Assembly (NCBI RefSeq): GCF_008122265.1
Contig: NZ_CP043042.1
Coordinates: 186,001-250,000 of the forward strand
Reading direction: 5' to 3'
DNA: 64,000 nucleotides
DNA from: Marinobacter fonticola
GTDB taxonomy: Bacteria; Pseudomonadota; Gammaproteobacteria; Pseudomonadales; Oleiphilaceae
The notes beneath the pieces were generated by a model. That model ran no database searches. It saw only the letters and a list, made by a program, of their open reading frames with translations, and was not told the DNA's origin. Of the stretch, positions 1-40,440 are shown in pieces. A program made the position numbers and the translations under genes. Position 1 is the stretch's first letter. Each line of letters begins with the position of its first letter.

Positions 1-847
<847 letters not shown>

Positions 848-1081: not shown

Positions 1082-2035
1082 TCATAGGGTTCCGAGAGCC
1101 ATTCGGTGAGGCTCCAGCCCAGTGCCTTGCAGGATGCGCTGACGGTATGACAGCGCGGCGTCGCTGCCCTCGGGCCACCAGCGGTCGAAGAGTTCCAGCC
1201 AGCGCTCCAGATTGAACATGACCGGCACTAACGATACGGATAGATCCCCCTGGAGGACGGCCATAAGCGGTTCCACCGGCGATTCGCGAAACATCGGCAG
1301 GCTGATCCGGCTTACCAGGCCGCGCGCATCGCCGGTCAGGTTGCCCATGCCCGCAGAACCGTTATTGATGACCGTGTGTGCGCCGTCTTGCCAAATGGCA
1401 GGCAAGCAGGTGTGGGTACACGCCATCAGGTCGGCTCCAGTGCGTTCGAACCACTGTGCAACCGTTTTCTGGTGTGTCGATTGGCTTAGGTGCTCATGCG
1501 CCAGGCCCCAGCCGGCGAGGGATTCCGGGTCGCCGTGGAGAATAAGCAGCCGTTGCCCGGCCAGTGACAGGCAGCGCCAGCGTGGGGCATTCCGCAACCG
1601 GGACTGGATCGCCGGAAAGCTCCCGGCGACGGCCTGCAATTGCTGCATGATCCGGTTGGAACGCGCCACCACGCGACTGTCGACGAAGTCGGGATAAGCG
1701 CAGCCGCATCCCGCGTCCGGGCTGGGGTTGGATAGCTCGTACTCGACGTTGCCGAGGACGATATCGTGGGCTAAAACGCGGTGGTTGAAGTCTTCGAAGC
1801 CATCTACGGCGCGGTTGAACCAGTTGAAGTCGCCATTGAAGACGACCCGGACTCGCCGGCCGAGCGCCTGCTCCTTCTCCACAAGAGACTCGATGGCCTC
1901 CAGTGCCAGCGGATTGCCGTAGAGGCCACCGACGACGTAGAGCACGTCGGCGTCGAGACTTTCGGGTGCCTGGCACAGCTGTTCGGGCCGGTAGCGGTAG
2001 TGGATCGGACAACTGCGGCCGGGGCGACTATCCAT
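1082..2035 (-). CDS. Metallophosphoesterase-like protein with degenerate metal ligands
   Basis: 317 residues. The layout follows calcineurin-like phosphoesterases, but key ligands are replaced: motif I (normally GDxHGN) reads GGLYGN, motif III (GNH) reads GNVE and motif V (GHTH) reads CTHT, while NGDFNWF (motif II), LHGDP and VINNGSAG are kept. A Cys-rich CGCAYP lies between. It may be a pseudo-enzyme or use another metal set. The start at 2035 is chosen for GGGGAGA just upstream; a longer frame would overlap the symporter C-terminus. It is last in the run DUF547, radical SAM, symporter, this gene, 20 bp after the symporter stop. Substrate unknown. Confidence 0.7.
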   Translation of the reverse strand: MDSRPGRSCPIHYRYRPEQLCQAPESLDADVLYVVGGLYGNPLALEAIESLVEKEQALGRRVRVVFNGDFNWFNRAVDGFEDFNHRVLAHDIVLGNVEYELSNPSPDAGCGCAYPDFVDSRVVARSNRIMQQLQAVAGSFPAIQSRLRNAPRWRCLSLAGQRLLILHGDPESLAGWGLAHEHLSQSTHQKTVAQWFERTGADLMACTHTCLPAIWQDGAHTVINNGSAGMGNLTGDARGLVSRISLPMFRESPVEPLMAVLQGDLSVSLVPVMFNLERWLELFDRWWPEGSDAALSYRQRILQGTGLEPHRMALGTL

Positions 2036-2055
2036 CGATCGTATCTCCCCTGACG

Positions 2056-3459
2056 TTAATGGACGCGAGATACAGTTCGGCCACGGGCCAGACGCTGCAC
2101 GATAATCGGCAGGAAGAAGCCGGCGGTGCAGATCAGGATGCCCCAGGCGTTCACGCCCAACAGCGCGGCGTACTTGCCTTCGCCGATGGACCAGCTTGGC
2201 GGAATCAGTCCCGTGGCCAGCAAGACACCGAGCACGATGCCGCTCCAGAAACTGAGGTGGAAGCTCCACGGGGACCAGCGAGTGAAGCCGTAAAATAGAA
2301 ATACCGGGGCCAGACCCATGACCATGGTGCCGGAGATCGTGGTCGCCTTAAGAATGTCGGTACCGGCGAACATCGGCAGGTTGCCGAGGATGGCGAACGC
2401 GACCATGACGACCGCGCCGACGCGCATGGAGGGTAGTTGCTCCGTTACGCGCCTTACCAGTTTCGGCAAGTCCACGGCAATCGACTTGGCCAGAGACGTA
2501 AAGGTGGAATCCAGCGTCGAGCCGGCGGAGGTCATCATTACCACGCTCATGAAGAATAAGGCTGTCAGGCCCAGTGCCGCGCCCACGGCTGCCGGCGCGT
2601 TGCCATTGGTGTCAATGCCATTGAGTTGGGCGTGTACGCCGACGAGGCTGAAAATGAACACAGCAACGAAACCGAGCAGACCGGCGACCACGAAGCTTTT
2701 AAGCATGGTTTTTTCTTTGTTCACGAAGCCGCGGTCAGTGAGCACCGGATCATGGAACGGGTAGCTGAAGATCTGCAGACCGGCCACCAGCAGCAAATCG
2801 GCACCGGCATTGAGGCGGAAATCGCCGGTGGACAGCAGGGTGCCGGTATCATTGGCTGGAACGATCAGAAACAGCACCGCTGCCAGGAAGAAGACGAACA
2901 GCACGGCCTGGATGACATCGGTGAAGATCGAACTGCGCAGCCCGCCTTTGAGGCTGTATGCCAGCGTGAATGCAGTGAAGAGCATGGCGGCGGTGTAGTA
3001 CTGCCATTCACCGGGAAGCCCGAAATAGCCCCCGACCACCGCGGTATTGCTCCAGACTTCGTTGTACAGGCGGATCAGGATCGCAGCGGCAAACGCCAGC
3101 GCCGCCAGACGGCCAAAGCGGGAGGTGAGAAAGTCTTGTAGGCTCGTGGCGCCGGTCTGGGTACGAATCAGGTAAATGATGTAGCCTGCGACCGGTATCG
3201 ATAGCCAATAAGTGGCGTAGGCCAAGCCGCCGACAACACCGTAGGCTGCGCCCAGGTTAGCGGCGTTGGTTACCGATTTGGCAAAAATCCAGCTAATAAA
3301 GATGCTGGCCGTGAGTGACCATTGCCCCACCGGATTGCCGTGTTTATCCGCGCCACGGTAGAACGAGGCGGGATTGGTGCTGCGTGGCGACAGGGCATAC
3401 ATCACCACGCCATAAACGATAAGAAAGCCCCAGAACAGGCCCGCTTCGGCGAACGACAT
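2056..3459 (-). CDS. Sodium:solute symporter (SSS family)
   Basis: 467-residue inner-membrane protein of about 13 hydrophobic helices, of the LeuT-fold SSS family (PutP/PanF/SglT relatives), which import small solutes with Na+. Recognisable segments are SWIFAKSVTNAANLGAAYG in the second helix region and SLKGGLRSSIFTDVIQ, typical of this family. The substrate cannot be read from sequence. The ATG at 3459 is preceded by AAGGAA. It lies 72 bp after the radical SAM gene; that gap contains a GC-rich hairpin (GGCAG, then CTGCC, with inner CCGC/GCGG) without a T-run on the transcribed strand. Its place between a radical SAM enzyme and a phosphoesterase-like protein suggests uptake of the precursor or export of the product. 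Confidence 0.85.
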   Translation of the reverse strand: MSFAEAGLFWGFLIVYGVVMYALSPRSTNPASFYRGADKHGNPVGQWSLTASIFISWIFAKSVTNAANLGAAYGVVGGLAYATYWLSIPVAGYIIYLIRTQTGATSLQDFLTSRFGRLAALAFAAAILIRLYNEVWSNTAVVGGYFGLPGEWQYYTAAMLFTAFTLAYSLKGGLRSSIFTDVIQAVLFVFFLAAVLFLIVPANDTGTLLSTGDFRLNAGADLLLVAGLQIFSYPFHDPVLTDRGFVNKEKTMLKSFVVAGLLGFVAVFIFSLVGVHAQLNGIDTNGNAPAAVGAALGLTALFFMSVVMMTSAGSTLDSTFTSLAKSIAVDLPKLVRRVTEQLPSMRVGAVVMVAFAILGNLPMFAGTDILKATTISGTMVMGLAPVFLFYGFTRWSPWSFHLSFWSGIVLGVLLATGLIPPSWSIGEGKYAALLGVNAWGILICTAGFFLPIIVQRLARGRTVSRVH

Positions 3460-3531
3460 TGTTGAACGATTCCTTCTTTTATTTTTTTTCCGTGTTGTTG
3501 AGGCAGACCGCCGCTTAGCGGGCTGCCAGTA

Positions 3532-4494
3532 TCAGCCTGGAGCGCTACAGCTGGCGCCGAACCGGTAGCAGGCGAAGCAGCGGTGGTGGCGCAGCATGAT
3601 CCGTGTGTCCATGCTCTCTTTCAACGTGCCGCCCAGGTCGTAATCCGGATCGTCGTCCACCAGCGTACAGGCGTAGACCCGCACCCGGTCGTCCCTCTTC
3701 ACCAGCATGCGCGTGTACGTGCACATGAAATGCGACTGGCTTTCACGCGTGGGGTATTTCTCCATGCAGCTTTCGGTGATTTCCGGGCTGCCGTCGTCGG
3801 AGCCGGGCGTGCCGAAATCCGGGAAGGCGGTAAACGCCAGATCTTCGGGAATCGCCCATTCGCGAAAAATGGCCCGGAAGTCAGCCTCTACTTGCCCGGG
3901 ATCTTCGTCGTTATCGCTCTGACGGGCGATGGACACTTCAAAGCCGTTATCGTGCAGCCAGCGAATCCCTTCCAGCGCCTTGTCAAAACTGCCCGCGCCG
4001 CGATCGACGTCGTGGCGGGCGCGATCCGGGAAGTCCAGGCTGACGCGAAAGCGAACCGGAAACGGATTCTCCCGCAGGGGCAACAGTTGATGCGTGCGCT
4101 TGAGCAGCGGGTCCGTGGCATTGGTCAGCACAAAACAGGGCCGGTGCTGGCTAACGTAGTCCAAGATATTGATAAAATCGCGAATGACGAAAGGCTCGCC
4201 GCCGGTAAAGGAAAACTGCTCGACGCCCATTTCCAGCGCCTCGTGAATGAACGGCTTGACGTCGCTCAGCTTCATGCCTGGTATGCGGCCGTCGCCGGGA
4301 TGGGAGCCCTCCAGGCAAAAGGGGCAGGCCAAATTACATGCGGTGCCGGTATGTATCCACAGCTCTTTGAGCCGGTCGGCATCGATATAGCCGCGAGGCT
4401 CGCCTTCGCGGGTGTGGGTCCAGCTATCGATGTGGCGGGGCGCAACGACTTCCTTCGCCGGGATGCGCTGTAGGCCACCGGATATTACAGACAT
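3532..4494 (-). CDS. Radical SAM protein with C-terminal cysteine cluster
   Basis: 320 residues. CNLACPFC supplies the CX3CX2C [4Fe-4S] site (Cys53, 57, 60), followed by the SAM-binding GGEP motif (98-101). The last 65 residues hold further cysteines (FMC, YAC, CFAC, ASC) in a SPASM/twitch-like tail that could bind an auxiliary cluster. Such enzymes modify peptides or small molecules by radical chemistry in the cytoplasm; no precursor peptide gene is visible nearby. The start at 4494 is set by GGGAG and lies 2 bp from the DUF547 stop, so translation is probably coupled. A longer frame to 4680 only overlaps DUF547. I do not recognise a named subfamily. Confidence 0.8.
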   Translation of the reverse strand: MSVISGGLQRIPAKEVVAPRHIDSWTHTREGEPRGYIDADRLKELWIHTGTACNLACPFCLEGSHPGDGRIPGMKLSDVKPFIHEALEMGVEQFSFTGGEPFVIRDFINILDYVSQHRPCFVLTNATDPLLKRTHQLLPLRENPFPVRFRVSLDFPDRARHDVDRGAGSFDKALEGIRWLHDNGFEVSIARQSDNDEDPGQVEADFRAIFREWAIPEDLAFTAFPDFGTPGSDDGSPEITESCMEKYPTRESQSHFMCTYTRMLVKRDDRVRVYACTLVDDDPDYDLGGTLKESMDTRIMLRHHRCFACYRFGASCSAPG

Positions 4495-4496
4495 AA

Positions 4497-5303
4497 TTAC
4501 TCCCTTGTATTCTCGACGCTGTTCAACGACCAGTCGTAGTCGAGGTATTCGAATCCGGGTTTTTCTGTGTCGCGTGAGGACAGGGCGCCGGCTCCGGCAA
4601 GATGCTCCCGGTTCTTCAGAAGAAAGCCGCGTACCCCGTGAGGATAGCCGGACTCGGTGTTCCAGTCGTCGCCATACCATTTAAAGATGGACGAGATTTC
4701 AAACGTTCCCGTCACAGAGTTATAACGATTCCGTGACGAATCTGAGAGGAAGCGTCTGACCGCTTCATCCAACTGTGTGTCCAATGTTTCAGCGTTATAC
4801 GCATGTTTTGCCAAGGCGGGGCAACCAATGGAGGCGCAATTGACCGCCATATGGATGCGAGGTTCCGCAAACCATTCACGAATCATGTCGTGTTCTAACT
4901 CGTCTAAGCTGCGTTCCGATCCCAGTAGCGTAAAGAACCGTTTTGACCAGGGCGAGCCGAACAGGCCGCCGATATCCTTGATGGACTCCAAATCGGAAGC
5001 CTGGTCCAGGATCAGACGCACCGTAAAAGCGTTATAGGCGTTGATTAGAAAAGCCAGTTGCTGCCGGTCATTCCAGGCATCGAACTCCGTCCGTGCGACA
5101 TCGGACAACTCGGCCAGATAATCATTCAGCGGCGCTTGATCCTGACGCCATGCCGAGTAGTCCACTGCCGAGGATGTACCCTTGTTGATCCACTCGACAT
5201 GGCTCTGCAGCTCGCTTTCCCAAAGGCTGTGCGCATGGTCGAAGGGTGCGGCGCTCAAGCCGGTGGAGGTTAGGAAGGCCAGCAAAAACAGTAACTGTCG
5301 CAT
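4497..5303 (-). CDS. DUF547 domain-containing exported protein
   Basis: 268 residues with a signal peptide (MRQLLFLLAFLTSTGLSA, cleavage near 18-19), so periplasmic or secreted. DUF547 marks are AFLINAYNAFTVRLIL, VNCASIGCPAL with its conserved CX6C pair, ISSIFKWYGDDW and LDYDWSLN near the C-terminus. The biochemical role of DUF547 is not established. It heads the minus-strand operon DUF547, radical SAM, SSS symporter, phosphoesterase-like protein, and is divergent from the DUF3179 gene. A TGTAAC-N17-GTC motif lies 78 bp upstream of the start, suggesting an ECF sigma factor promoter. Confidence 0.85.
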   Translation of the reverse strand: MRQLLFLLAFLTSTGLSAAPFDHAHSLWESELQSHVEWINKGTSSAVDYSAWRQDQAPLNDYLAELSDVARTEFDAWNDRQQLAFLINAYNAFTVRLILDQASDLESIKDIGGLFGSPWSKRFFTLLGSERSLDELEHDMIREWFAEPRIHMAVNCASIGCPALAKHAYNAETLDTQLDEAVRRFLSDSSRNRYNSVTGTFEISSIFKWYGDDWNTESGYPHGVRGFLLKNREHLAGAGALSSRDTEKPGFEYLDYDWSLNSVENTRE

Positions 5304-5380
5304 ACGTCCGCATTCCAGTAGATGATTTGAAGCATACGTGCCTTGGGCAGGATTCGATGCATGGCGCTTGTGTAGTTACT

Positions 5381-5406
5381 GACACGAGGCCGGCCTGGAT
5401 GTTACA
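5381..5406 (-). promoter_or_regulatory. Candidate ECF-sigma promoter for the DUF547 operon
   Basis: On the minus strand TGTAAC (5406-5401) is followed after exactly 17 nt by GTC (5383-5381). The divergent DUF3179 gene carries the same pair at the same spacing. ECF sigma factors typically read an AAC-containing -35 and a GTC-containing -10 box, and an ECF sigma gene lies 1.5 kb away. Assignment to that sigma factor is inference. Confidence 0.5.
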
Positions 5407-5442
5407 GCCAGCCTCAAACCTGCGTATACCATCGCAGGCCCG

Positions 5443-5468
5443 TGTAACGCTCTCGGCTTGTGGGGGTC
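5443..5468 (+). promoter_or_regulatory. Candidate ECF-sigma promoter for the DUF3179 gene
   Basis: TGTAAC at 5443-5448 and GTC at 5466-5468, separated by 17 nt and lying 58 bp before the DUF3179 start. Same motif and spacing as on the opposite strand at 5406-5381. The two starts are only 37 bp apart, back to back, so the operons probably respond together. Confidence 0.5.
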
Positions 5469-5526
5469 TATTAAAAACAGGGAGTCCTCGCAAAGCCTTA
5501 TTGCTAAATCTGGAGGAGTGAGTCAC

Positions 5527-6474
5527 ATGCGCCCCGCAAGACGTTTTATCGCCTTTCTGCTGACCTGGCCAATCGTGACCGGTTTGATTGCTGCACCATT
5601 CAAGAATGGATTTGACCTGAGGGGTGCTCTGGTACCTCCCGAGGCCATCATAAGTGGCGGACCTCCACGGGACGGCATTCCCGCGTTGACCAATCCGTCG
5701 TTTGTGGAGCACGAGGTGGCCTCGCTTTGGCAGCCTGATGACATTGTACTCTCGGTAGAAACCGAGTCGGGCTCCAGGGCCTATCCGGTGGGCGTCCTGA
5801 ACTGGCATGAGCTGGCTAACGATACGATTGACGGCCAGCCGGTATTGATTAGCTTTTGCCCGCTATGCGGCACCGGCATGATTTTCGAGCGCAGGGTTGC
5901 GAACCGGACGCTAACGTTTGGTGTCTCGGGGCTGCTCTACAACAGCGATCTGCTGATGTATGACCACCAGACCGAATCGCTTTGGTCGCAAATTGGGGCG
6001 CGGGCGATTGCCGGTCCGCTGGCCGGTACGCGGCTGGAGCAGCGGCCCGTGCGCCACGAGCGCTGGCAAGCGTGGAAGGCACGGGTCGGGAATGCGGGGA
6101 AGGTGCTGTCGACCGACACGGGCTACTCGCGGGATTACCGACGTTCGCCCTACGGTGAGTACGACCACTCCGAAAGGCTCTATTTTCCGGTGTCGCACCA
6201 GAGTCGTCTGTATCACCCCAAGACCTTGGTGCTAGGCGGATCCTTCAAGGGTGAGCATAAAGCCTGGCCATTTCCGGAACTGGCCAAGACTGACGGCACG
6301 GTCAACGACCGGATTGGCGGCGAAGCGGTCGTGATCCATTACGATGCTACGGTGCCGACGGCTCGACTTTATCGCGCTTCGGGCGAGTTGCTGCCGGCGG
6401 TCCAGGCCTTCTGGTTCGCATGGTTTACGTTTCACCCGGAAACCGATGTATACACTCATGATCAGCCGGATTGA
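5527..6474 (+). CDS. DUF3179 domain-containing exported protein
   Basis: 315 residues with a signal peptide (MRPARRFIAFLLTWPIVTGLIAA). DUF3179 marks: SFCPLCGTGMIFER with a CX2C pair (Cys111, Cys114), LLYNSDLLMYDHQTESLWSQ and KAWPFPEL. The family has no settled biochemical function; the CX2C in an exported protein could bind metal or act in thiol redox. The start is fixed by the strong GGAGGAG 9 bp upstream; a longer reading from 5458 lacks such a site. It is divergent from the DUF547 operon, with matching candidate ECF promoters between them. Ends 43 bp before the convergent anti-sigma gene. Confidence 0.88.
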   Translation: MRPARRFIAFLLTWPIVTGLIAAPFKNGFDLRGALVPPEAIISGGPPRDGIPALTNPSFVEHEVASLWQPDDIVLSVETESGSRAYPVGVLNWHELANDTIDGQPVLISFCPLCGTGMIFERRVANRTLTFGVSGLLYNSDLLMYDHQTESLWSQIGARAIAGPLAGTRLEQRPVRHERWQAWKARVGNAGKVLSTDTGYSRDYRRSPYGEYDHSERLYFPVSHQSRLYHPKTLVLGGSFKGEHKAWPFPELAKTDGTVNDRIGGEAVVIHYDATVPTARLYRASGELLPAVQAFWFAWFTFHPETDVYTHDQPD

Positions 6475-6516
6475 AAAAATCCTGCCATCGGGCGCCTTGG
6501 ATGGCGTGTGGCAGGA

Positions 6517-6759
6517 TCACCTGGACCGATCATCAATCGCGTCAGTCACCGCCTGTTCAAGGCGCTCCAGGTAACTCTCATGGGCCTGACCGATGGCATG
6601 GCGCTCGATGATTTCTGTCGTCAGGCGAATATGGTTGATAAACGCCCTGCAGCGCCGGCACATCATCAGGTGGGCTCGCAAAGAGAGTCGCTTGAGCGGC
6701 TTGACTTCGTCATCAATGTAGTCGCTGGCAAGTAGCGCGATATCCTTGCACATCAACAT
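6517..6759 (-). CDS. Zinc-finger anti-sigma factor (ZAS type)
   Basis: 80 residues, soluble. It carries the HX3CX2C zinc site (His30, Cys34, Cys37) plus Cys4, the pattern of putative zinc-finger anti-sigma factors, which hold their sigma partner inactive until thiol oxidation or another signal releases it. The ATG at 6759 has AGGAG 8 nt upstream and overlaps the sigma gene stop by 7 bp, so the two are translationally coupled. No membrane segment is present, which points to a cytoplasmic signal. Confidence 0.8.
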   Translation of the reverse strand: MLMCKDIALLASDYIDDEVKPLKRLSLRAHLMMCRRCRAFINHIRLTTEIIERHAIGQAHESYLERLEQAVTDAIDDRSR

Positions 6760-7367
6760 TCGCCGGTCTCCTGAAAATGTTCCAGCATAAGAAAGATGCG
6801 TTGGCGGGCGCGATGAATCATGACCCTCAGATTAGACGGTGAAATCCGGAGAATGTTACAGATGTCCTCCGAGCATCGTTGGTGGGCTTCGTAGAGTATC
6901 AGCGCCGTTCTCTGGTTCTCGGGCAGCGACGATAGGTGTTTGTCGAGGCAATCCTTGAGAGCCTCGTTTTCAAGCCAGTGTTCGGCGGTCTCGTGGGTTT
7001 GCAGTCTGGGCGGTTGGGTCCAGCGTCCATTCCGACCAAATCGGGCGCCCAGGGTGGGGTCGAGAGCATCGGAAAAGTCCACGTTTATCTCCCGGTCAGC
7101 GGTGCGAACCGCGTTCTTGCAGCGGTTCGCCACTATCCGACACAGCCAGGTTTTAAGGGAGGATCGCCCCTCAAACGAGTCGATGGCGTCGATAATTTTA
7201 AGCCAGCACTCCTGCACGACATCTTCCGCTTTGTCGGGCGCGACGTAGCAACGAGCGACCGCCAGCATCGTCGGACTATAGGTACGTACGGCGAGACGAT
7301 AGGTAGCGGGGTCGCGGTCCTGCAAGCCAGCCAGCAAGTGCTCGTCGGTCGTCGAATCGGCGGTCAT
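6753..7367 (-). CDS. RNA polymerase ECF sigma-70 family factor
   Basis: 204 residues with the two ECF regions: sigma2 (VVQECWLKIIDAIDSFEGRSSLKTWL split over about 50-75) and sigma4 (LSSLPENQRTALILYEAHQR, then the helix-turn-helix around DICNILRISPSNLRVMIHRAR, about 150-195). The long linker around GARFGRNGRWTQPPRLQ is notable. It directs RNA polymerase to a small regulon and is presumably bound by the anti-sigma protein encoded immediately downstream. GGAG precedes the start. Likely targets, by proximity and motif, are the DUF547 and DUF3179 operons; I see no TGTAAC-N17-GTC in front of the sigma gene itself. Confidence 0.88.
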   Translation of the reverse strand: MTADSTTDEHLLAGLQDRDPATYRLAVRTYSPTMLAVARCYVAPDKAEDVVQECWLKIIDAIDSFEGRSSLKTWLCRIVANRCKNAVRTADREINVDFSDALDPTLGARFGRNGRWTQPPRLQTHETAEHWLENEALKDCLDKHLSSLPENQRTALILYEAHQRCSEDICNILRISPSNLRVMIHRARQRIFLMLEHFQETGEC

Positions 7368-7501
7368 GTCTTACACTCCATCATTCTGCGTGGCTGATGC
7401 CTGGAAACCCTCGAGTGCGACCTCTCGGTTATATTTGGGTTTGCGTGGCATAGCGCTGCTTCGTCGCATTTTGTATATATGAGTAATCGCCCAATATTAA
7501 T

Positions 7502-7554
7502 TTGAGCATCTGCTCAAGAATAGGTTAGCGTATCGGATATTGATCGTTCGCTCA
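7502..7554. promoter_or_regulatory. Pair of operator-like dyads between the sigma gene and the AhpD-like gene
   Basis: TTGAGCATCTGCTCAA (7502-7517) is a perfect 7-bp dyad with a 2-bp centre. A second 14-mer, TGATCGTTCGCTCA (7541-7554), shares 10 of 14 positions with TGAGCATCTGCTCA. Their starts are 38 bp apart. This is the look of a repressor or activator site (TetR-like dyads are similar) controlling the divergent genes; the regulator is not identified. Confidence 0.45.
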
Positions 7555-7606
7555 AAAATGGGGCAACGTTCAAGGTTGTGAACGAATGTCACAAGGAGGA
7601 TGCGTT

Positions 7607-8158
7607 ATGTCAGATTTCAAACTGCACGATCAGGGTTCGGCGCCGCAAGAAGCAAAGCCACTGCTGGAAAAGTCGCAGAAGGCTTTTGGTATGGTGCCCA
7701 GTCTGCACGCCATCATGGCGGAAGCGCCGGGCGTCCTGCAGGCATACCAGGAGCTCCACCAGCTGTTTCTGGAGACCAGCTTCGACAATGACGAAACCAC
7801 TGTGGTCTGGCAAACCATCAACGTCGAGCATGCCTGCCACTATTGCGTCCCCGCCCATACCGGCATTGCCAAGTCCATGAAGGTTTCGGACGACATTATC
7901 GACGCGCTGCGCGATGAAACGCCATTGCCTAGCGAGAAACTGGAGGCCCTGCGCACGTTCACCCTGGCAGTGGTTCGTAAGCGCGGTGAGGTTAATCGAG
8001 AAGACCTCGATGCATTCCATGCCGCCGGTTATGAACATCGGCATGTGCTCGAAGTGGTCCTTGGGCTCTCGCAAAAAGTGTTGAGCAACTACATCAACCA
8101 CATTGCGGAAACACCCATTGACGAGCCATTCAAAAAGTTCGAGTGGAAGAAGAGCTAG
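7607..8158 (+). CDS. Carboxymuconolactone decarboxylase/AhpD-like protein
   Basis: 183 residues. The AhpD-like redox motif EX2CX2CX3H is complete (Glu74, Cys77, Cys80, His84), so a peroxidase or thiol-redox role is more likely than ring-opening decarboxylation. Cytoplasmic, no signal peptide. The start at 7607 is set by AAGGAGG at good spacing. It is divergent from the ECF sigma/anti-sigma pair, with two dyads in the shared intergenic space. Proteins of this family often accompany stress ECF factors, which fits an oxidative-stress setting, but no direct proof is in the sequence. Confidence 0.85.
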   Translation: MSDFKLHDQGSAPQEAKPLLEKSQKAFGMVPSLHAIMAEAPGVLQAYQELHQLFLETSFDNDETTVVWQTINVEHACHYCVPAHTGIAKSMKVSDDIIDALRDETPLPSEKLEALRTFTLAVVRKRGEVNREDLDAFHAAGYEHRHVLEVVLGLSQKVLSNYINHIAETPIDEPFKKFEWKKS

Positions 8159-8510: not shown

Positions 8511-8557
8511 GATGCGGGAGTGCTATGCACACAACCGATATTCGGAGGCAACCTATA

Positions 8558-9583
8558 ATGAAAAAACTAATTTCACTTGCTGCGGGAACGGCAACACTGG
8601 TGGGTACGTTGATGGCTGGAAATGCCATGGCGGCAACTACTCTGGAAACCGTCCAGGAAAGGGGGCATGTCCAATGCGGCGTTACCAACGGCCTGCCCGG
8701 TTTCTCCCAGCCGGATGAAAAGGGCAACTGGACGGGGATTGACGTCGATACATGCCGTGCGGTGGCTGCTGCGGTTTTCGGCGATGGCGGTAAGGTACAA
8801 TTCACGCCCCTGACGGCCAAAGAGCGTTTTACCGCGCTACAATCCGGCGAAATCGACGTGCTGTCCCGCAACACGACTTGGACGCTGACCCGGGACGCCT
8901 CGCTGGGTCTGAACTTCACCGGCACCAACTACTACGATGGCCAGGGCTTCCTGGTGCGCAAAGAGATCGGCGTGAGCGATGCAACCGAACTGGATGGCGC
9001 CACGTTCTGTATCCAATCCGGCACCACCACCGAGCTCAACCTGGCGGACTATTTCCGCGCCAACGACATGGACTTCAAGCCGTTGGTCTTCGATACGTCC
9101 GAGCAGACTGTGCAGGGCTTTGCCTCCGGCCGCTGCGACGTGCTGACCTCTGACCGTTCACAGCTGGCCGCTCTGCGCTCCAAGCTGTCGGATCCCTCCA
9201 GTGCGGTCATCCTGCCGAACACCATTTCCAAGGAACCGCTGGGTCCGGTGGTTCGCCAGGGCGACGACCAGTGGTTCAACATTGTGAAGTGGTCATTGTT
9301 CGCTCAGATCAATGCTGAAGAACTGGGCGTGACGTCCGAGAACGTCGACAAGATGAAGGACTCCGATAACCCCAACATCCAGCGTCTGCTGGGTACCGAT
9401 GGCGATATGGGCGATAAGCTGGGTCTGCCGGCTGATTTCGGCCACGCTATCGTTAAGGAAGTGGGCAACTACGGCGAAATGTATAACCGTAACGTTGGCC
9501 CGGGCACCCCGCTCGATCTCGAGCGCGGCCTGAACGCGCTGTGGACCGAAGGCGGCATCATGTACGCGCCGCCGCTGCGTTAA
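8558..9583 (+). CDS. aapJ: General L-amino-acid ABC transporter, periplasmic binding protein
   Basis: 341 residues with a 25-residue signal peptide ending AMA. Binds a broad range of L-amino acids in the periplasm and delivers them to AapQM. Sequence marks: GHVQCGVTNGLPGFSQPDEKG, RNTTWTLTRDASLGLNFTG and GRCDVLTSDRSQLAALR, typical of AapJ/BztA. The ATG at 8558 has GGAGG upstream; the longer frame from 8525 adds residues before the signal peptide and is rejected. First gene of aapJQMP, behind a sigma-54 promoter. A palindromic element in the following gap probably keeps aapJ mRNA more abundant than the permease mRNA. Confidence 0.95.
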   Translation: MKKLISLAAGTATLVGTLMAGNAMAATTLETVQERGHVQCGVTNGLPGFSQPDEKGNWTGIDVDTCRAVAAAVFGDGGKVQFTPLTAKERFTALQSGEIDVLSRNTTWTLTRDASLGLNFTGTNYYDGQGFLVRKEIGVSDATELDGATFCIQSGTTTELNLADYFRANDMDFKPLVFDTSEQTVQGFASGRCDVLTSDRSQLAALRSKLSDPSSAVILPNTISKEPLGPVVRQGDDQWFNIVKWSLFAQINAEELGVTSENVDKMKDSDNPNIQRLLGTDGDMGDKLGLPADFGHAIVKEVGNYGEMYNRNVGPGTPLDLERGLNALWTEGGIMYAPPLR

Positions 9584-9651
9584 AACCCGAAAGCAACCGC
9601 AAGCCGGCAAACACGCGCTGTTCGCCGGCTTACGCCTTGAATGACGTTTTG

Positions 9652-9731
9652 GGAGTCTCTGAATCGCTCCTGGATCGCTCTGAATGCCCCGAAGGGCGCG
9701 CAGAGACGATCCAGGGGTGGTTCAGCGACTC
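9652..9731. mobile_element. Short degenerate MITE-like palindrome between aapJ and aapQ
   Basis: About 80 bp whose ends are imperfect inverted repeats of about 30 nt (left begins GGAGTCTCTGAATCGC; right end reads GAGTCGCTGAACCACC on the opposite strand). Ends and the internal GCCCCGAAGGGCGCGC resemble the larger element at 40499-40778, so it looks like an internally deleted relative. No intact target duplication is seen. As RNA it would form a strong hairpin inside the aap operon. Confidence 0.6.
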
Positions 9732-9761
9732 TTAACCCAAGGGTGCTTTCCGGGATTCTGC

Positions 9762-10949
9762 ATGAACGATACTAACCCGCAATTCGAACAAACCCGGCGC
9801 AAGCCCTGGAATGATCCACGGGTGCGCGCTCTTGTTTTCCAAGCTATAGCTATTGCCGGGGTTTTCTGGGCTGGCTGGGCGCTGATCGACAATACCCTGG
9901 CCAACATGGAAAGCCGTGGCATCAGTACCGGCTTTGGCTTCCTCGACCAATCCGCCGGCTTCGGCATCATCATGAGCCTGATTCCCTACGATGCGACCAT
10001 GTCTTATGGCCGTACGTTCTGGGTCGGGCTGCTCAATACCTTGCTGGTGTCCGTCATGGGTATCGTCGCGGCGACGATCCTGGGGTTCATCATCGGCGTG
10101 GCCCGGTTGTCCAGCAACTGGCTGGTTGCCAAGCTGGCCTTGGTTTACGTCGAAATCTTCCGCAACATCCCGCTACTCCTGCAGATTTTCTTCTGGTACT
10201 TCGCGGTGTTGAGAAATCTCCCCTCGCCGCGGCAAAGTGTCGATGTCGGCGGATTGCTGTTTCTCAACAACCGGGGGCTTTATTTGCCTGAGCCGGTGGC
10301 CCAGCCCGGGTTCGCCTGGGTAACGGCAGCGATTGTGATTGCGATCGCTGCGGTGGTGGGAATTCGCGTGATGGCCAAGCGGCGCCAGATGGCGACCGGC
10401 AAGATCTTCCCGACGGTTAAAGTCAGCGCCGCTGTGCTTATCGGCCTGCCCCTCGTGACATATCTGCTCGCTGGTGGCCCGATTGTTTGGGAAATTCCAG
10501 AGTTGAAAGGCTTCAATTTCGGCGGGGGCATGACCCTGATTCCGGAACTGGCCGCTCTCTGGTTCGCGCTCTCCATCTACACGGCCAGCTTCATTGCCGA
10601 GATCGTCCGCTCGGGTATTCTCGCGGTTAGCAAAGGCCAGACAGAGGCCGCTCAGGCCCTGGGTTTACGCTCCGGCATGACGTTGCGGCTGGTGGTCATC
10701 CCCCAGGCCATGCGGGTCATCATCCCGCCGCTCACCAGTCAGTACCTGAACCTGATGAAGAACTCCTCCCTGGCAACCGCGATCGGCTACCCGGATCTGG
10801 TGTCTGTGTTTATGGGCACGACCCTGAACCAGACCGGTCAGGCGGTCGAAGTGGTGGCGATGACGATGGGGGTCTACCTGACGCTCAGTCTGCTGATCTC
10901 GCTGCTCATGAACATCTACAATCGCGCCGTTGCGCTTAAGGAGAGATGA
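9762..10949 (+). CDS. aapQ: General L-amino-acid ABC transporter, permease
   Basis: 395 residues, multi-spanning inner-membrane subunit. The HisM-type EAA loop that contacts the ATPase is near the C-terminus (TEAAQALGLRSGMTLRLVV, about 308-326, then IPQAMR). It has the large insert between the first helices seen in AapQ/BztB compared with ordinary HisM proteins. Start at 9762 is weakly supported (GGGAT upstream), but the longer frame from 9684 would begin inside the palindromic element. Its stop overlaps the aapM start. Confidence 0.93.
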   Translation: MNDTNPQFEQTRRKPWNDPRVRALVFQAIAIAGVFWAGWALIDNTLANMESRGISTGFGFLDQSAGFGIIMSLIPYDATMSYGRTFWVGLLNTLLVSVMGIVAATILGFIIGVARLSSNWLVAKLALVYVEIFRNIPLLLQIFFWYFAVLRNLPSPRQSVDVGGLLFLNNRGLYLPEPVAQPGFAWVTAAIVIAIAAVVGIRVMAKRRQMATGKIFPTVKVSAAVLIGLPLVTYLLAGGPIVWEIPELKGFNFGGGMTLIPELAALWFALSIYTASFIAEIVRSGILAVSKGQTEAAQALGLRSGMTLRLVVIPQAMRVIIPPLTSQYLNLMKNSSLATAIGYPDLVSVFMGTTLNQTGQAVEVVAMTMGVYLTLSLLISLLMNIYNRAVALKER

Positions 10950-12034
10950 TGTCCGAGTCTGTAATGTCACCTCCCAAGCGCAACATCGGCCCGGTCCGTT
11001 GGGCGCGCGATAACTTGTTCAACACGTGGTACAACACGGTGCTGACCCTGGTGGTCGGCTACCTGGTGGTGACCAGTGTCGGGCCCCTGCTGAGCTGGGT
11101 GTTGCTGGATGCCAATTTCGTTGGCGATTCGCCGGAGGCCTGTGTGGGAGAAGGCGCCTGCTGGGTGTTTATCAACCAGCGGCTGAACTTCTTCATCTAT
11201 GGGTTCTATCCCGGCGACGAGCAGTGGCGGGTCAACATTATGTTTGCCCTGCTGGCGCTGTGCGTCATACCCCAGTTTATCGAGAGCTTCCCTGCCCGGC
11301 GCTGGCTGGGCATCTTCGCCCTGACGGGTTTGCCCGTGGTGGGTTACTTCCTGATCAGCGGAGGCTGGTTCGGGCTGGAAACCGTGCCGACCAGCCGGTG
11401 GGGCGGTTTGATGCTGACCCTGATCCTGGCCTACGTGGGGATCCTGGCGTCGCTGCCCATCGGCATCGTGCTGGCTCTGGGGCGGCGCTCGGACATGCCG
11501 ATCATCCGCGGTATCTGCGTGGTCTTCATCGAAGTCTGGCGGGCGGTGCCATTGATTACCGTGCTGTTCATGGCCTCGGTGATGCTGCCGCTATTCCTGC
11601 CTGAAGGCATGAACTTCGAGAAGCTGATGCGCGCCTTGATCGGTATCACCCTGTGGCAGTCCGCCTATATGGCCGAGGTGATCCGTGGCGGCTTGCAGGC
11701 CATTCCCCGTGGCCAATACGAGGCGGCCAGTGCGCTGGGGTTGGGCTACTGGCGCAAGATGGGGCTGATCATTCTGCCCCAGGCGTTGAAGCTGGTTATT
11801 CCCGGCATCGTCAACACCTTTATCTCTCTGTTCAAGGACACCACCCTGGTGCTGATCATTGGCCTGTTCGACGTGCTGGGCACGGTGCAGTCGACGATCA
11901 CCGACCCGGCGTGGCAGAACGTTGCCATCGAAGGCTATGTCTTCGTCGCCTTCTGTTTCTGGGTATTCTGCTTCGGCATGTCCCGCTATAGCCAGAACCT
12001 TGAACGTAAGCTTGATACCGGTCACCGGACCTGA
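10949..12034 (+). CDS. aapM: General L-amino-acid ABC transporter, permease
   Basis: 361 residues, partner of AapQ in the membrane heterodimer. EAA loop YEAASALGLGYWRKMGLI followed by ILPQALK lies in the C-terminal third. Two ATG codons adjoin (10946 and 10949); GGAG spacing favours 10949, which overlaps the aapQ TGA, so the two permeases are translationally coupled. The extended N-terminal half with the extra loop CVGEGACWVFINQRLNFF matches AapM/BztC. Confidence 0.93.
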   Translation: MSESVMSPPKRNIGPVRWARDNLFNTWYNTVLTLVVGYLVVTSVGPLLSWVLLDANFVGDSPEACVGEGACWVFINQRLNFFIYGFYPGDEQWRVNIMFALLALCVIPQFIESFPARRWLGIFALTGLPVVGYFLISGGWFGLETVPTSRWGGLMLTLILAYVGILASLPIGIVLALGRRSDMPIIRGICVVFIEVWRAVPLITVLFMASVMLPLFLPEGMNFEKLMRALIGITLWQSAYMAEVIRGGLQAIPRGQYEAASALGLGYWRKMGLIILPQALKLVIPGIVNTFISLFKDTTLVLIIGLFDVLGTVQSTITDPAWQNVAIEGYVFVAFCFWVFCFGMSRYSQNLERKLDTGHRT

Positions 12035-12046
12035 TGGATACGCAAC

Positions 12047-12838
12047 ATGACAGAGCAAATGCAGAAAACTGAGAAACAGACGGTTTTGGACTCCACCAAG
12101 GCGGAAAAGACCATTATCCGGGTGGAAGACATGCACAAGTGGTACGGCAGCTTTCATGTACTCAAGGCGCTCAATCTGGAGGTTTCCCAGGGTGAGCGGA
12201 TCGTGGTGTGTGGCCCGTCCGGTTCTGGTAAGTCGACGTTTATCCGGTGTATTAACCGGCTTGAAGAGCACCAGCAGGGCAAGATCGTCGTCGACGATGT
12301 GGAGCTGACCGACGATGTGCGTCAGATCGACAGCGTACGGCGCGAAGTGGGTATGGTGTTCCAGCACTTCAACCTGTTTCCGCACATGACGGTACTGGAG
12401 AACTGCTGCGTGGCGCCGATCTGGGTGCGCAAGACACCGCGCAAGGATGCCGAGGCCACGGCCATGGAATACCTGAAGCGAGTCAAGATTCCCGACCAGG
12501 CTCACAAGTACCCGGGGCAGTTATCCGGTGGTCAGCAGCAACGGGTGGCCATCGCCCGAGCGCTGTGCATGAAACCCAAGATCATGTTGTTTGACGAGCC
12601 CACGTCGGCGCTGGATCCGGAGATGATCAAGGAGGTGCTCGACACGATGATCGAACTGGCCAGCAGCGGCATGACCATGATTTGCGTGACCCACGAAATG
12701 GGCTTCGCCAAGACCGTTGCGGACCGCGTGATTTTCATGGACGGCGGTGAAATCGTCGAATCCGCTCCGCCCCACGATTTCTTCGATAATCCACAGGAAG
12801 CGCGGACCCAGCAGTTTCTGCGGCAGATCCTGCACTGA
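12047..12838 (+). CDS. aapP: General L-amino-acid ABC transporter, ATP-binding protein
   Basis: 263 residues, cytoplasmic ATPase of the Aap importer. Walker [10 protein letters not shown] (56-64), signature LSGGQQQR (159-166), Walker B IMLFDEP (180-186) and the H-loop in VTHEMGF are intact. Strongly similar to GlnQ/AapP. It carries an extra 20-residue polar N-terminus relative to GlnQ. It is 12 bp after aapM and is the last gene, followed by a perfect hairpin. Confidence 0.95.
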
Positions 12839-12912: not shown

Positions 12913-13536
12913 TTATCGTAGCGATGGGTTCAAGGTGTAAGTGCCGGTCACCCGCGCCGAGGCCAGCACATGACCCTGCATGGCTTCGCGCACGGCGTCG
13001 CCTTCGAATTCGCCGTCCAGATTTAGAGTCTCTACATCCAGAGCGTGGATCTCGTAGTGGTAGCGGTGCACGATTTCATCGTTCCAGGGCGGGCAGGGGC
13101 CATCGTAGCCGCCGTAGGTGCCCGCCATGTCCGGGTTGCCAGCTAGGAAATGGGTGAAGGTGTTGACCCCGCGCACACCAATCGGGCCGGCGCCGGGGGA
13201 TTTACCCTTGGGGATAACGCCGTCGCTGTCCGTGCCTTCGGGGATACGGCTCATATCGGCCGGTACATCCACCAATAACCAGTGGAAAAAATCCACCCGG
13301 GGCAGATCTTTGGGTACAACCTTGTCTTCCTGATTGACGTCGTCGGCCTTGCTGGGCACATCCGGGTCGAACATGATCACCACGAAGCTTTTGGTGCCGG
13401 CCGGGGTGTCCGACCACTCCATTTCCGGATTCCGGTTGGGCCCAAAACTCATGTGATCCTCTTCGCTGTAAACGCCGAAGGCGAAGGTTTCCGGAATCGG
13501 CTGTCCGTCGGTGATACCTTTCACTTGAAGTTTCAC
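12913..13536 (-). CDS. YbhB/YbcL family PEBP-like protein
   Basis: 207 residues of the phosphatidylethanolamine-binding/Raf-kinase-inhibitor-like fold. Visible marks: NRNPEMEWSDTPAGTKSF, MFDPDVPS, FFHWLLVDVP (His of the anion pocket) and YGGYDGPCPPWNDEIVHRYH. Bacterial members have no firm function. A GTG start at 13536 is chosen because AAGGAG lies 7 nt upstream; an ATG reading further upstream has no such site. Divergent from ndh across about 300 bp. Confidence 0.85.
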   Translation of the reverse strand: MKLQVKGITDGQPIPETFAFGVYSEEDHMSFGPNRNPEMEWSDTPAGTKSFVVIMFDPDVPSKADDVNQEDKVVPKDLPRVDFFHWLLVDVPADMSRIPEGTDSDGVIPKGKSPGAGPIGVRGVNTFTHFLAGNPDMAGTYGGYDGPCPPWNDEIVHRYHYEIHALDVETLNLDGEFEGDAVREAMQGHVLASARVTGTYTLNPSLR

Positions 13537-13761
13537 GGTTTGCTCCTTGTTGGGATGGCTTCGTACACGCCGTGCGTCGTAATCCGCAGTCAACATGCTT
13601 ACGTTTTAACAGTCTGTTTTTCCCTGTGTCCAGTGTTTACGGCTTGGTGCAGATCATTGGCGGGCATTGCATTGGACGGGCAGAACGCTAACATGCCCCC
13701 CGGAAGTCGCATTGAGCCGTCTGTAGCCTCCGGTTACGATATCGTTATCTCTGCACAAGTG

Positions 13762-40298: not shown

Positions 40299-40440
40299 TT
40301 TGCTATCCGGCCGCGCTCCGGCGACAGACGGGCCATTCCTCGATGTTGTTTTGCCGCTAGACTCCGAGCTATCCATGCCTTTCGTGTAACACTTTTCGTG
40401 CATACTTGTTTCGTAATGACTGTTTGAAATAGCTGTTTTT

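Follow-up and report, generated by a model that had tools for sequence, protein, structure and literature searches.

An ECF-linked radical SAM gene block of Marinobacter fonticola as the probable core of an ArsS-independent, arsenosugar-type pathway

Which pathway is served by the gene block at positions 1082 to 8158 of a 64,000-nucleotide stretch of the Marinobacter fonticola genome, in which a radical S-adenosylmethionine (SAM) enzyme lies together with a sodium:solute symporter, two proteins of uncharacterised DUF families and an extracytoplasmic function (ECF) sigma factor? The stretch, hereafter called the window, comprises bases 186001-250000 of a single-contig 4.54-Mb genome. A first-pass annotation, made without database searches, had proposed a stress-induced system of undescribed kind that makes or salvages a small molecule. 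Comparison with related genomes suggests that this ECF-linked block probably forms the core of an organoarsenical pathway of the arsenosugar type, with ArsS replaced by a radical SAM family that has no name. This reading draws on the gene set, its conservation, the exclusion of ArsS in two genome samples, glycosyltransferase genes in the same genome and a shared promoter motif. That a small molecule is handled was very probably right; the undescribed kind of system did not survive, since relatives of the enzyme sit in arsenosugar-type clusters, and the arsenic connection had been missed. The block would thus appear to be an unrecognised ArsS-independent variant with its own ECF-type promoter and a family-typical transport module, rather than a system of unknown kind.

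Pfam and NCBIfam matches placed all the genes named by the first-pass annotation where it had put them, with their starts corrected. The main genes of the block are:

1082-2035, minus strand, phosphoesterase-like protein, matching Metallophos_2 (PF12850) below threshold
2056-3459, minus strand, SSS-family sodium:solute symporter (PF00474, 44.7 bits, cut-off 22.8)
3532-4494, minus strand, radical SAM enzyme of the twitch/SPASM fold class (PF04055, 68.2 bits)
4497-5303, minus strand, DUF547 protein (PF04784, 88 bits), signal-like N-terminus by eye
5527-6474, plus strand, DUF3179 protein (PF11376, 282.8 bits), signal-like N-terminus by eye
6517-6759, minus strand, zf-HC2 anti-sigma factor (PF13490, 36.2 bits, cut-off 22.2; NF052368 above cut-off)
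6753-7367, minus strand, ECF sigma factor (PF04542, PF08281 and TIGR02937 above cut-off, the last with 79.9 bits against 42.9)

The minus-strand run is as tight as had been described between the DUF547 and radical SAM genes (2 bp) but not between the latter and the symporter gene, which are 72 bp apart; the ECF sigma and anti-sigma genes overlap by 7 bp. The signal-like starts of the DUF547 and DUF3179 proteins agree with the earlier proposal of exported partners.

In favour of the first-pass annotation, the radical SAM protein fits no named NCBIfam family. Its top-scoring named radical SAM model, the Rv1681 family (NF049973), for which we know of no function, matches residues 36-216 and no more, and membership was rejected at 100.9 bits against a cut-off of 380. 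Membership of ArsS (TIGR04167) was also rejected (37.6 bits, cut-off 300; rank 13 among the NCBIfam matches listed), and the window genome holds no ArsS above cut-off, the best match scoring 36.4 bits. The CxxxCxxC motif is present as CNLACPFC, its three Cys being invariant in an alignment of 65 rows. The C-terminal HCxxCTAGxGSSCxG seen in 19 ArsS proteins is replaced in the window enzyme by RCFACYRFGASCS, and the C-terminal Cys of the two align in position (hhalign). In the phylogenetic tree the family of the window enzyme forms a clade apart from ArsS with a support of 100/99. The closest named relative is from Marinobacter (87% identity), and a Modicisalibacter protein (P0112) is 68% identical; by their record titles, relatives occur in Gammaproteobacteria, Alphaproteobacteria, Nitrosospira and Kiritimatiellae, many of them in metagenome bins. 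The genome paper of another Modicisalibacter species has a resistance-gene table with two arsenosugar glycosyltransferases, and its table passages name neither ArsS nor ArsM (PMC13077682). No description of this enzyme family or gene set was found in the open-access literature. On plasmid pHP-187 of Marinobacter adhaerens the match to the radical SAM gene is split in two; the gene is unannotated and looks broken there, and the SSS gene after it does carry an annotation. In another genome (G057) the match is likewise split in two.

To place the enzyme in its genomic context, the best 80 of 508 confirmed relatives (17 Marinobacter and 63 other loci) were analysed for neighbouring marker genes, called from BLAST hits to seed sequences (E<1e-6, coverage of half the seed), and a near zone of 4 kb was compared with an outer zone of 5.5-10 kb, which is represented in 66 of the 80 loci. 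TIGR04282-like and TIGR04283-like glycosyltransferase genes each lay in the near zone of 34 loci, against 0 and 1 in the outer zone. The corresponding counts were 24 against 1 for ArsM-like genes, 40 against 1 for VTT, 42 against 1 for FAD, 11 against 0 for MTAP-like and 19 against 0 for ECF genes. At least one ArsM-like, TIGR04282-like or TIGR04283-like gene was found within 4 kb in 51 of the 63 non-Marinobacter loci. The operon of Nitrosospira NpAV reads TIGR04282-TIGR04283-ArsM-radical SAM-TMEM64/FAD, and that of Motiliproteus MSK22-1 reads TIGR04282-ArsM-radical SAM-ArsC-like-MTAP-TIGR04283. Fifteen neighbour proteins from these loci (8 + 7) were scanned with NCBIfam, and the top match was the expected model in all cases; two MTAP-like neighbours pass TIGR01694, while a small phosphatase-like neighbour is a relative of arsenate reductase (TIGR02691; three scanned, all below cut-off). 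The window genome itself carries TIGR04282 (167.8 bits, cut-off 134) and TIGR04283 (267 bits, cut-off 182) genes at C1:2815675-2817034. The relatives of the enzyme sit in such arsenosugar-type clusters, which makes it very probable that the block carries out organoarsenical chemistry of a type known from ArsS. Sixteen further loci of a wider group of 33-38% identity (L182-L197; L195 unread) have pathway genes in a few cases: ArsM-like in L186 and L187, TIGR04283-like in L186, TIGR04282-like in L189 and the phosphoesterase in L185. The claims made here are therefore confined to the family proper unless stated.

The window enzyme and ArsS share a genomic niche but no genome in the two samples that were compared. 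Among 146 related genomes (window enzyme at E<=1.6e-37, ArsS above cut-off, TIGR04283 at E<1e-40), the window enzyme occurs in 72, including six of the wider group, and ArsS in 43, with both in none. TIGR04283 is present in 116 of the 146: genomes that have one of the two enzymes account for 114 of these (out of 115), and those that lack both for 2 (out of 31; Fisher 4e-27, kinship uncorrected). Counted per genus, the window enzyme is found in 12 and ArsS in 25 of 64, with an overlap of 0 (P 0.0012), and within the 39 TIGR04283-bearing genera the exclusion gives P 2e-8, both uncorrected for kinship. A class-wide sample of 369 genomes, few of which overlap with the 146, contained the window enzyme (E<1e-25) in 8, one of them of the 38% kind, and ArsS (E<1e-60) in 182, again never together; TIGR04283 was found in 7 of the 8 (P 1.7e-7 among the 187 ArsS-less genomes).

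The ArsS/arsenosugar cluster (TIGR04167, TIGR04282, TIGR04283, ArsM) has common neighbours with the window family in TIGR04282, TIGR04283, ArsM, MTAP-like, TMEM64, FAD and DUF547 genes. One ArsS locus (L066) also shares the ECF pair and holds, in a row, ECF/anti-sigma-like, ArsS, TMEM64-FAD fusion, DUF547, TIGR04283 and TIGR04282 genes; it represents the window-family design with ArsS in place of the window enzyme, and its DUF547 protein is 46% identical over 270 residues to that of the window. Among 20 ArsS loci fetched, glycosyltransferases lie within 4 kb in 17, VTT in 5, and DUF547 and ECF in 1 each. Unlike in the ArsS cluster, the window radical SAM protein comes from a deeply separated other family, and most family genomes lack ArsM and have their glycosyltransferases elsewhere, with the SSS symporter, a phosphoesterase bearing a Cys-Gly-Cys motif and the ECF-type promoter instead.

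ArsS adenosylates arsenic in the synthesis of oxo-arsenosugars (PMC12159101). The link between ArsS and ArsM has been described together with ArsL, the radical SAM enzyme that forms a C-As bond beside ArsM in the arsinothricin cluster arsQML (PMC8552651). According to the passages of that paper on ArsL, it has 428 residues, ArsQ as a further partner and a proposed transfer of a 3-amino-3-carboxypropyl group, in which it differs from the window enzyme. Among the 25 listed of 40 NCBIfam matches of the window enzyme there is no ArsL model, and the comparison of the two is by description. Because ArsL attaches a different part of SAM to arsenic (PMC8552651), it is conceivable, though rather unlikely, that the window enzyme acts in an organoarsenical pathway but forms another bond, with a different SAM part or another arsenical, and that the product is a new organoarsenical instead of a classic arsenosugar. 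The distance from ArsS in score and tree and the lack of ArsM in the window genome would fit such chemistry, but the exclusion with ArsS and the common TIGR04283 argue against it, and the MTAP-like phosphorylase near 11 of the 80 relatives fits a 5'-modified adenosine product.

The conservation of the block was examined in the window's own family, over some 20 kb surrounding the radical SAM gene in 23 loci/genomes (genera g1, g2, g12, g13 and g16); some genomes are shared with the 80 relatives, so the two sets are not independent. The first-pass annotation was to be refuted if its neighbours did not recur in relatives. Within 4 kb SSS (22 of 23), phosphoesterase (21) and ECF (14) do recur, an association that is not due to chance, and for these three the refutation fails; DUF547 (3), DUF3179 (3) and the AhpD-like gene (0) are rare or absent there; within 8 kb the counts were ECF 15, DUF3179 8, DUF547 5 and AhpD 2. 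Further genes within 4 kb are ectA (20/23) and a TMEM64(VTT)-pyridine-nucleotide-disulphide oxidoreductase fusion (18/23), hereafter the TMEM64-flavoprotein fusion. From these counts the usual family unit is an ECF/anti-sigma pair divergent from TMEM64-flavoprotein fusion - radical SAM - SSS - phosphoesterase - ectA - ectB. DUF547, an occasional member of the unit, occupies the place of the fusion gene in the window and also in L042, a locus from the same genus; the window genome keeps its fusion elsewhere, at C1:4189268-4191400 (57% identity). Neither gene is present at L029, L040, L048 and L049, where the radical SAM gene directly adjoins aapJ, so that the fusion, ECF and DUF547 genes appear to have been inserted between the two or lost from there. 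In the window, a general amino-acid ATP-binding cassette (ABC) transporter (aapJ, aapQ, aapM and aapP-like by eye) lies beyond the block at 8525-12838 on the plus strand.

The genes at the two ends of the region are:

326-847, minus strand, ectA of ectoine biosynthesis (TIGR02406 above cut-off), neighbour downstream of the block
7586-8158, plus strand, AhpD/peroxidase-related protein (TIGR01926, 50.4 bits, below the cut-off of 81.8)

The start of ectB lies at the window edge, left of the block beside ectA. The AhpD-like label keeps its TIGR01926 match, below cut-off as it is, and finds no Pfam match at E 1e-3. Its gene had been placed alongside the unit; with 0/23 it was rejected as a member and is probably a bystander, which is likely rather than proven because few loci outside the family have an AhpD-like gene within 4 kb (2/11, and 3/80 among the best relatives, of which 1/17 Marinobacter and 2/63 others). 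The earlier framing of the locus as a generic stress-salvage operon without arsenic, with AhpD as a member, matches the ECF link, the signal-bearing partners and the adjoining ectoine genes; set against the arsenic context and the AhpD count, it retains very little credence.

A search for shared word pairs covered 25 stretches around ECF starts, the window included and at least two pairs of them from the same genome. The commonest pair, TGTAA + GTCT, occurs in 18 of the 25, always in the operon direction, compared with 3 reached by one shuffled set. A matrix of 16 distinct instances (maximum 25.4 bits), learned from loci other than the window, describes the motif TGTAACA-N13-cGTGTCT, and its matches in the window include two back-to-back sites between the DUF547 and DUF3179 genes:

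5380-5406, minus strand, ECF-type promoter motif TGTAACATCCAGGCCGGCCTCGTGTCA, highest-scoring match in the window (20.3 of 25.4 bits), 76 bp upstream of the DUF547 start
5443-5469, plus strand, ECF-type promoter motif TGTAACGCTCTCGGCTTGTGGGGGTCT, third-highest score in the window (17.0 bits), 57 bp upstream of the DUF3179 start

The site TGTAACATCCAGGCCGGCCTCGTGTCA lies upstream of the whole DUF547-radical SAM-SSS-phosphoesterase run. The second-best hit (6860) falls within the ECF gene and, being coding sequence, was left out of the promoter count. Twenty shuffled windows gave 0.35 hits of at least 15 bits per 64 kb. At a threshold of at least 16.5 bits, hits in 34 family loci precede the fusion gene (30), DUF3179 (6, two of these loci being of the same genome), DUF547 (3), the radical SAM gene (3) and ArsM (1); a further 7 precede the anti-sigma gene in coding sequence and 24 precede no labelled gene. 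Twelve loci outside the family gave 2 such hits, neither preceding a labelled gene. In M. mobilis the motif precedes the ArsM-ArsC-like genes, DUF3179 and the fusion-radical SAM operon. A sigma-70 promoter scan of 5250-7650 found 0 promoters. An exact-pattern search of the window genome found two perfect sites, both at this locus, and 18 with one mismatch (reversed control pattern, 50 hits), with 10 of 100 window shuffles reaching two hits at one mismatch; this search is partly circular because the pattern was written after the window sites were known, and the independent test is the matrix scan. One of the one-mismatch sites lies about 70 bp before the TMEM64/FAD fusion gene and scores <11 bits in the matrix scan. 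ECF sigma/zf-HC2 anti-sigma modules have the same gene pair and two-block promoter motif as the window, and no description of an ECF regulon of this kind was found in the open-access literature. The shared motif appears to tie the operon, DUF3179 and the ECF pair together, as the first-pass annotation had supposed in treating the block as one ECF-linked unit, and the ECF sigma factor is proposed as the regulator of both promoters. Elsewhere in the window a motif-like site at 13605-13631 on the plus strand (14.2 bits) adjoins a PEBP gene (12913-13596), with stronger copies (18.7 bits) at L040 19178, L048 969 and L049 525, where the ECF pair is not near the radical SAM gene; a further hit at 40385-40411 on the plus strand (16.3 bits) is far from the block.

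The remaining members of the block bear on how the arsenical might reach the enzyme. The nearest solved chains of the symporter are those of SGLT1 (E 3e-6), and it could tentatively be regarded as a candidate importer of a methylated arsenical. The phosphoesterase-like label needs a correction: the Metallophos_2 match reaches 22.8 bits against a cut-off of 27, and at the expected first metal motif, DxH in calcineurin-like phosphoesterases, the protein reads GGLYGN. A Cys-Gly-Cys is present in 42 of 42 covering rows from the family and two distant loci, several loci/genomes being represented twice. A plasmid of Roseomonas haemaphysalidis has an operon with a 33% relative of the radical SAM enzyme, in the order TIGR04282 - DUF547 - radical SAM - radical SAM - phosphonate-type ABC transporter - phosphoesterase. 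Genes for DUF547, FAD and VTT proteins lie close to this operon, whose phosphoesterase is 27% identical to that of the window; both have the Cys-Gly-Cys. Arsonates and arsinates resemble phosphonates, which hints, from this one operon, that transporter and phosphoesterase may take up and handle an organoarsenical. The same operon could be read differently, with the block making a compound in which the sugar is linked to some other element or group, such as selenium or phosphorus; the arsenosugar labels on the neighbours would then be misleading. The missing ArsM of most enzyme-bearing genomes would agree with this, but ArsM-like and arsenate-reductase-like genes lie in the same operons, in M. 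mobilis with the same promoter motif upstream, and this explanation is considered improbable. At L185 (13340-18677) a Cys-Gly-Cys phosphoesterase gene lies near a glycine-betaine-type (OpuAC-type) ABC transporter; a single operon of these genes was rejected, as an unrelated gene on the opposite strand lies between them. For the DUF547 protein, a predicted model with a predicted local distance difference test score (pLDDT) of 91 gave no Foldseek match to solved structures (PDB) at E<=0.001, although this does not prove the fold to be new, and neither DUF547 nor DUF3179 has PDB relatives by sequence at E 0.1.

ArsM-like proteins (profile A2, E<1e-30) were found in 40 of the 146 related genomes; by hand count these are 27 of the 43 with ArsS, 10 of the 72 with the window enzyme and 3 with neither, ArsM thus being absent from 16 ArsS genomes too. 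Where it occurs in Marinobacter, it can adjoin the unit: M. zhejiangensis has ArsM - anti-sigma/ECF - fusion - radical SAM - SSS - phosphoesterase - ectAB, and M. mobilis has ArsM - ArsC-like - DUF3179 - DUF6969 - anti-sigma/ECF - fusion - radical SAM - SSS - phosphoesterase - ectAB. In two other genomes (G059 and G082) an ArsM-like gene lies away from the radical SAM locus.

Several observations weigh against assigning the block to an arsenosugar-type pathway. ArsM is absent from 62 of the 72 enzyme genomes, among them that of the window, where there is no profile A2 match at 1e-30 and the best NF008823 score is 60.4/263 bits, so that a hidden ArsM was rejected. None of the 23 family loci has a TIGR04282-like or TIGR04283-like gene within 4 kb or at 5.5-10 kb, and seven family glycosyltransferase loci gave no motif hit of at least 14 bits: that of the window genome (L079) has no motif, and among the six others the highest score is 13.3 bits, for a site in L090 that lies 205 bp upstream of the glycosyltransferase. 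Twelve of the 63 non-Marinobacter loci, some of them short contigs, lack all three markers within 4 kb. Among the scanned TIGR04282/TIGR04283-like glycosyltransferases 3 of 10 score above cut-off and 7 below, the scanned ArsM-like and ArsC-like proteins fall below the ArsM and ArsC cut-offs, and 'arsenosugar' in TIGR04282 and TIGR04283 is an NCBI label. The hhalign probability of 97.7% between the window family and ArsS was obtained with no other twitch enzymes as control. In the class-wide sample one enzyme genome (G283) lacks TIGR04283 at E 1e-35, and TIGR04283 occurs without either enzyme in 11 genomes, which may be incomplete assemblies or hold yet another enzyme. The P values overstate independence because the genomes are related.

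With the arsenosugar-type pathway kept as the preferred reading, the block could work as follows. The zinc anti-sigma factor would release the ECF factor, allowing transcription from the two back-to-back promoters into a DUF547-radical SAM-SSS-phosphoesterase transcript and a DUF3179 transcript. The radical SAM enzyme would make a 5'-deoxyadenosyl radical and place it onto trivalent methylated arsenic, as ArsS does; in relatives the MTAP-like phosphorylase would remove the adenine, and TIGR04282/TIGR04283 proteins, whose genes in the window genome lie away from the block, would assemble the sugar product. Arsenic or thiols could be reduced by the TMEM64-flavoprotein fusion, a candidate reductase. 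Since ArsM is absent here and in most enzyme-bearing related genomes, the methylated arsenical is perhaps taken up, possibly by the symporter with the Cys-Gly-Cys-bearing phosphoesterase as its partner. A bolder proposal, put forward tentatively and with less than even confidence, is that the family is a second, separately evolved and widespread radical SAM enzyme for the C-As bond, its Marinobacter branch being devoted to ECF-controlled scavenging with sodium-symporter import of methylated arsenic instead of ArsM.

Arsenosugars are a main form of arsenic in much of marine life. If the pathway were surveyed by ArsS, 72 of the 146 related genomes would be overlooked, namely those that bear the window enzyme instead. 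If confirmed, the enzyme would constitute a second lineage for a rare bond, DUF547, DUF3179 and an SSS transporter would gain a place in arsenic metabolism, and the ECF promoter motif could be tested. More than one kind of enzyme would then join arsenic to sugar, one of them unnamed in genome annotation, and the ArsM-less branch raises the question of whether some marine bacteria live off the methylated arsenic of others.

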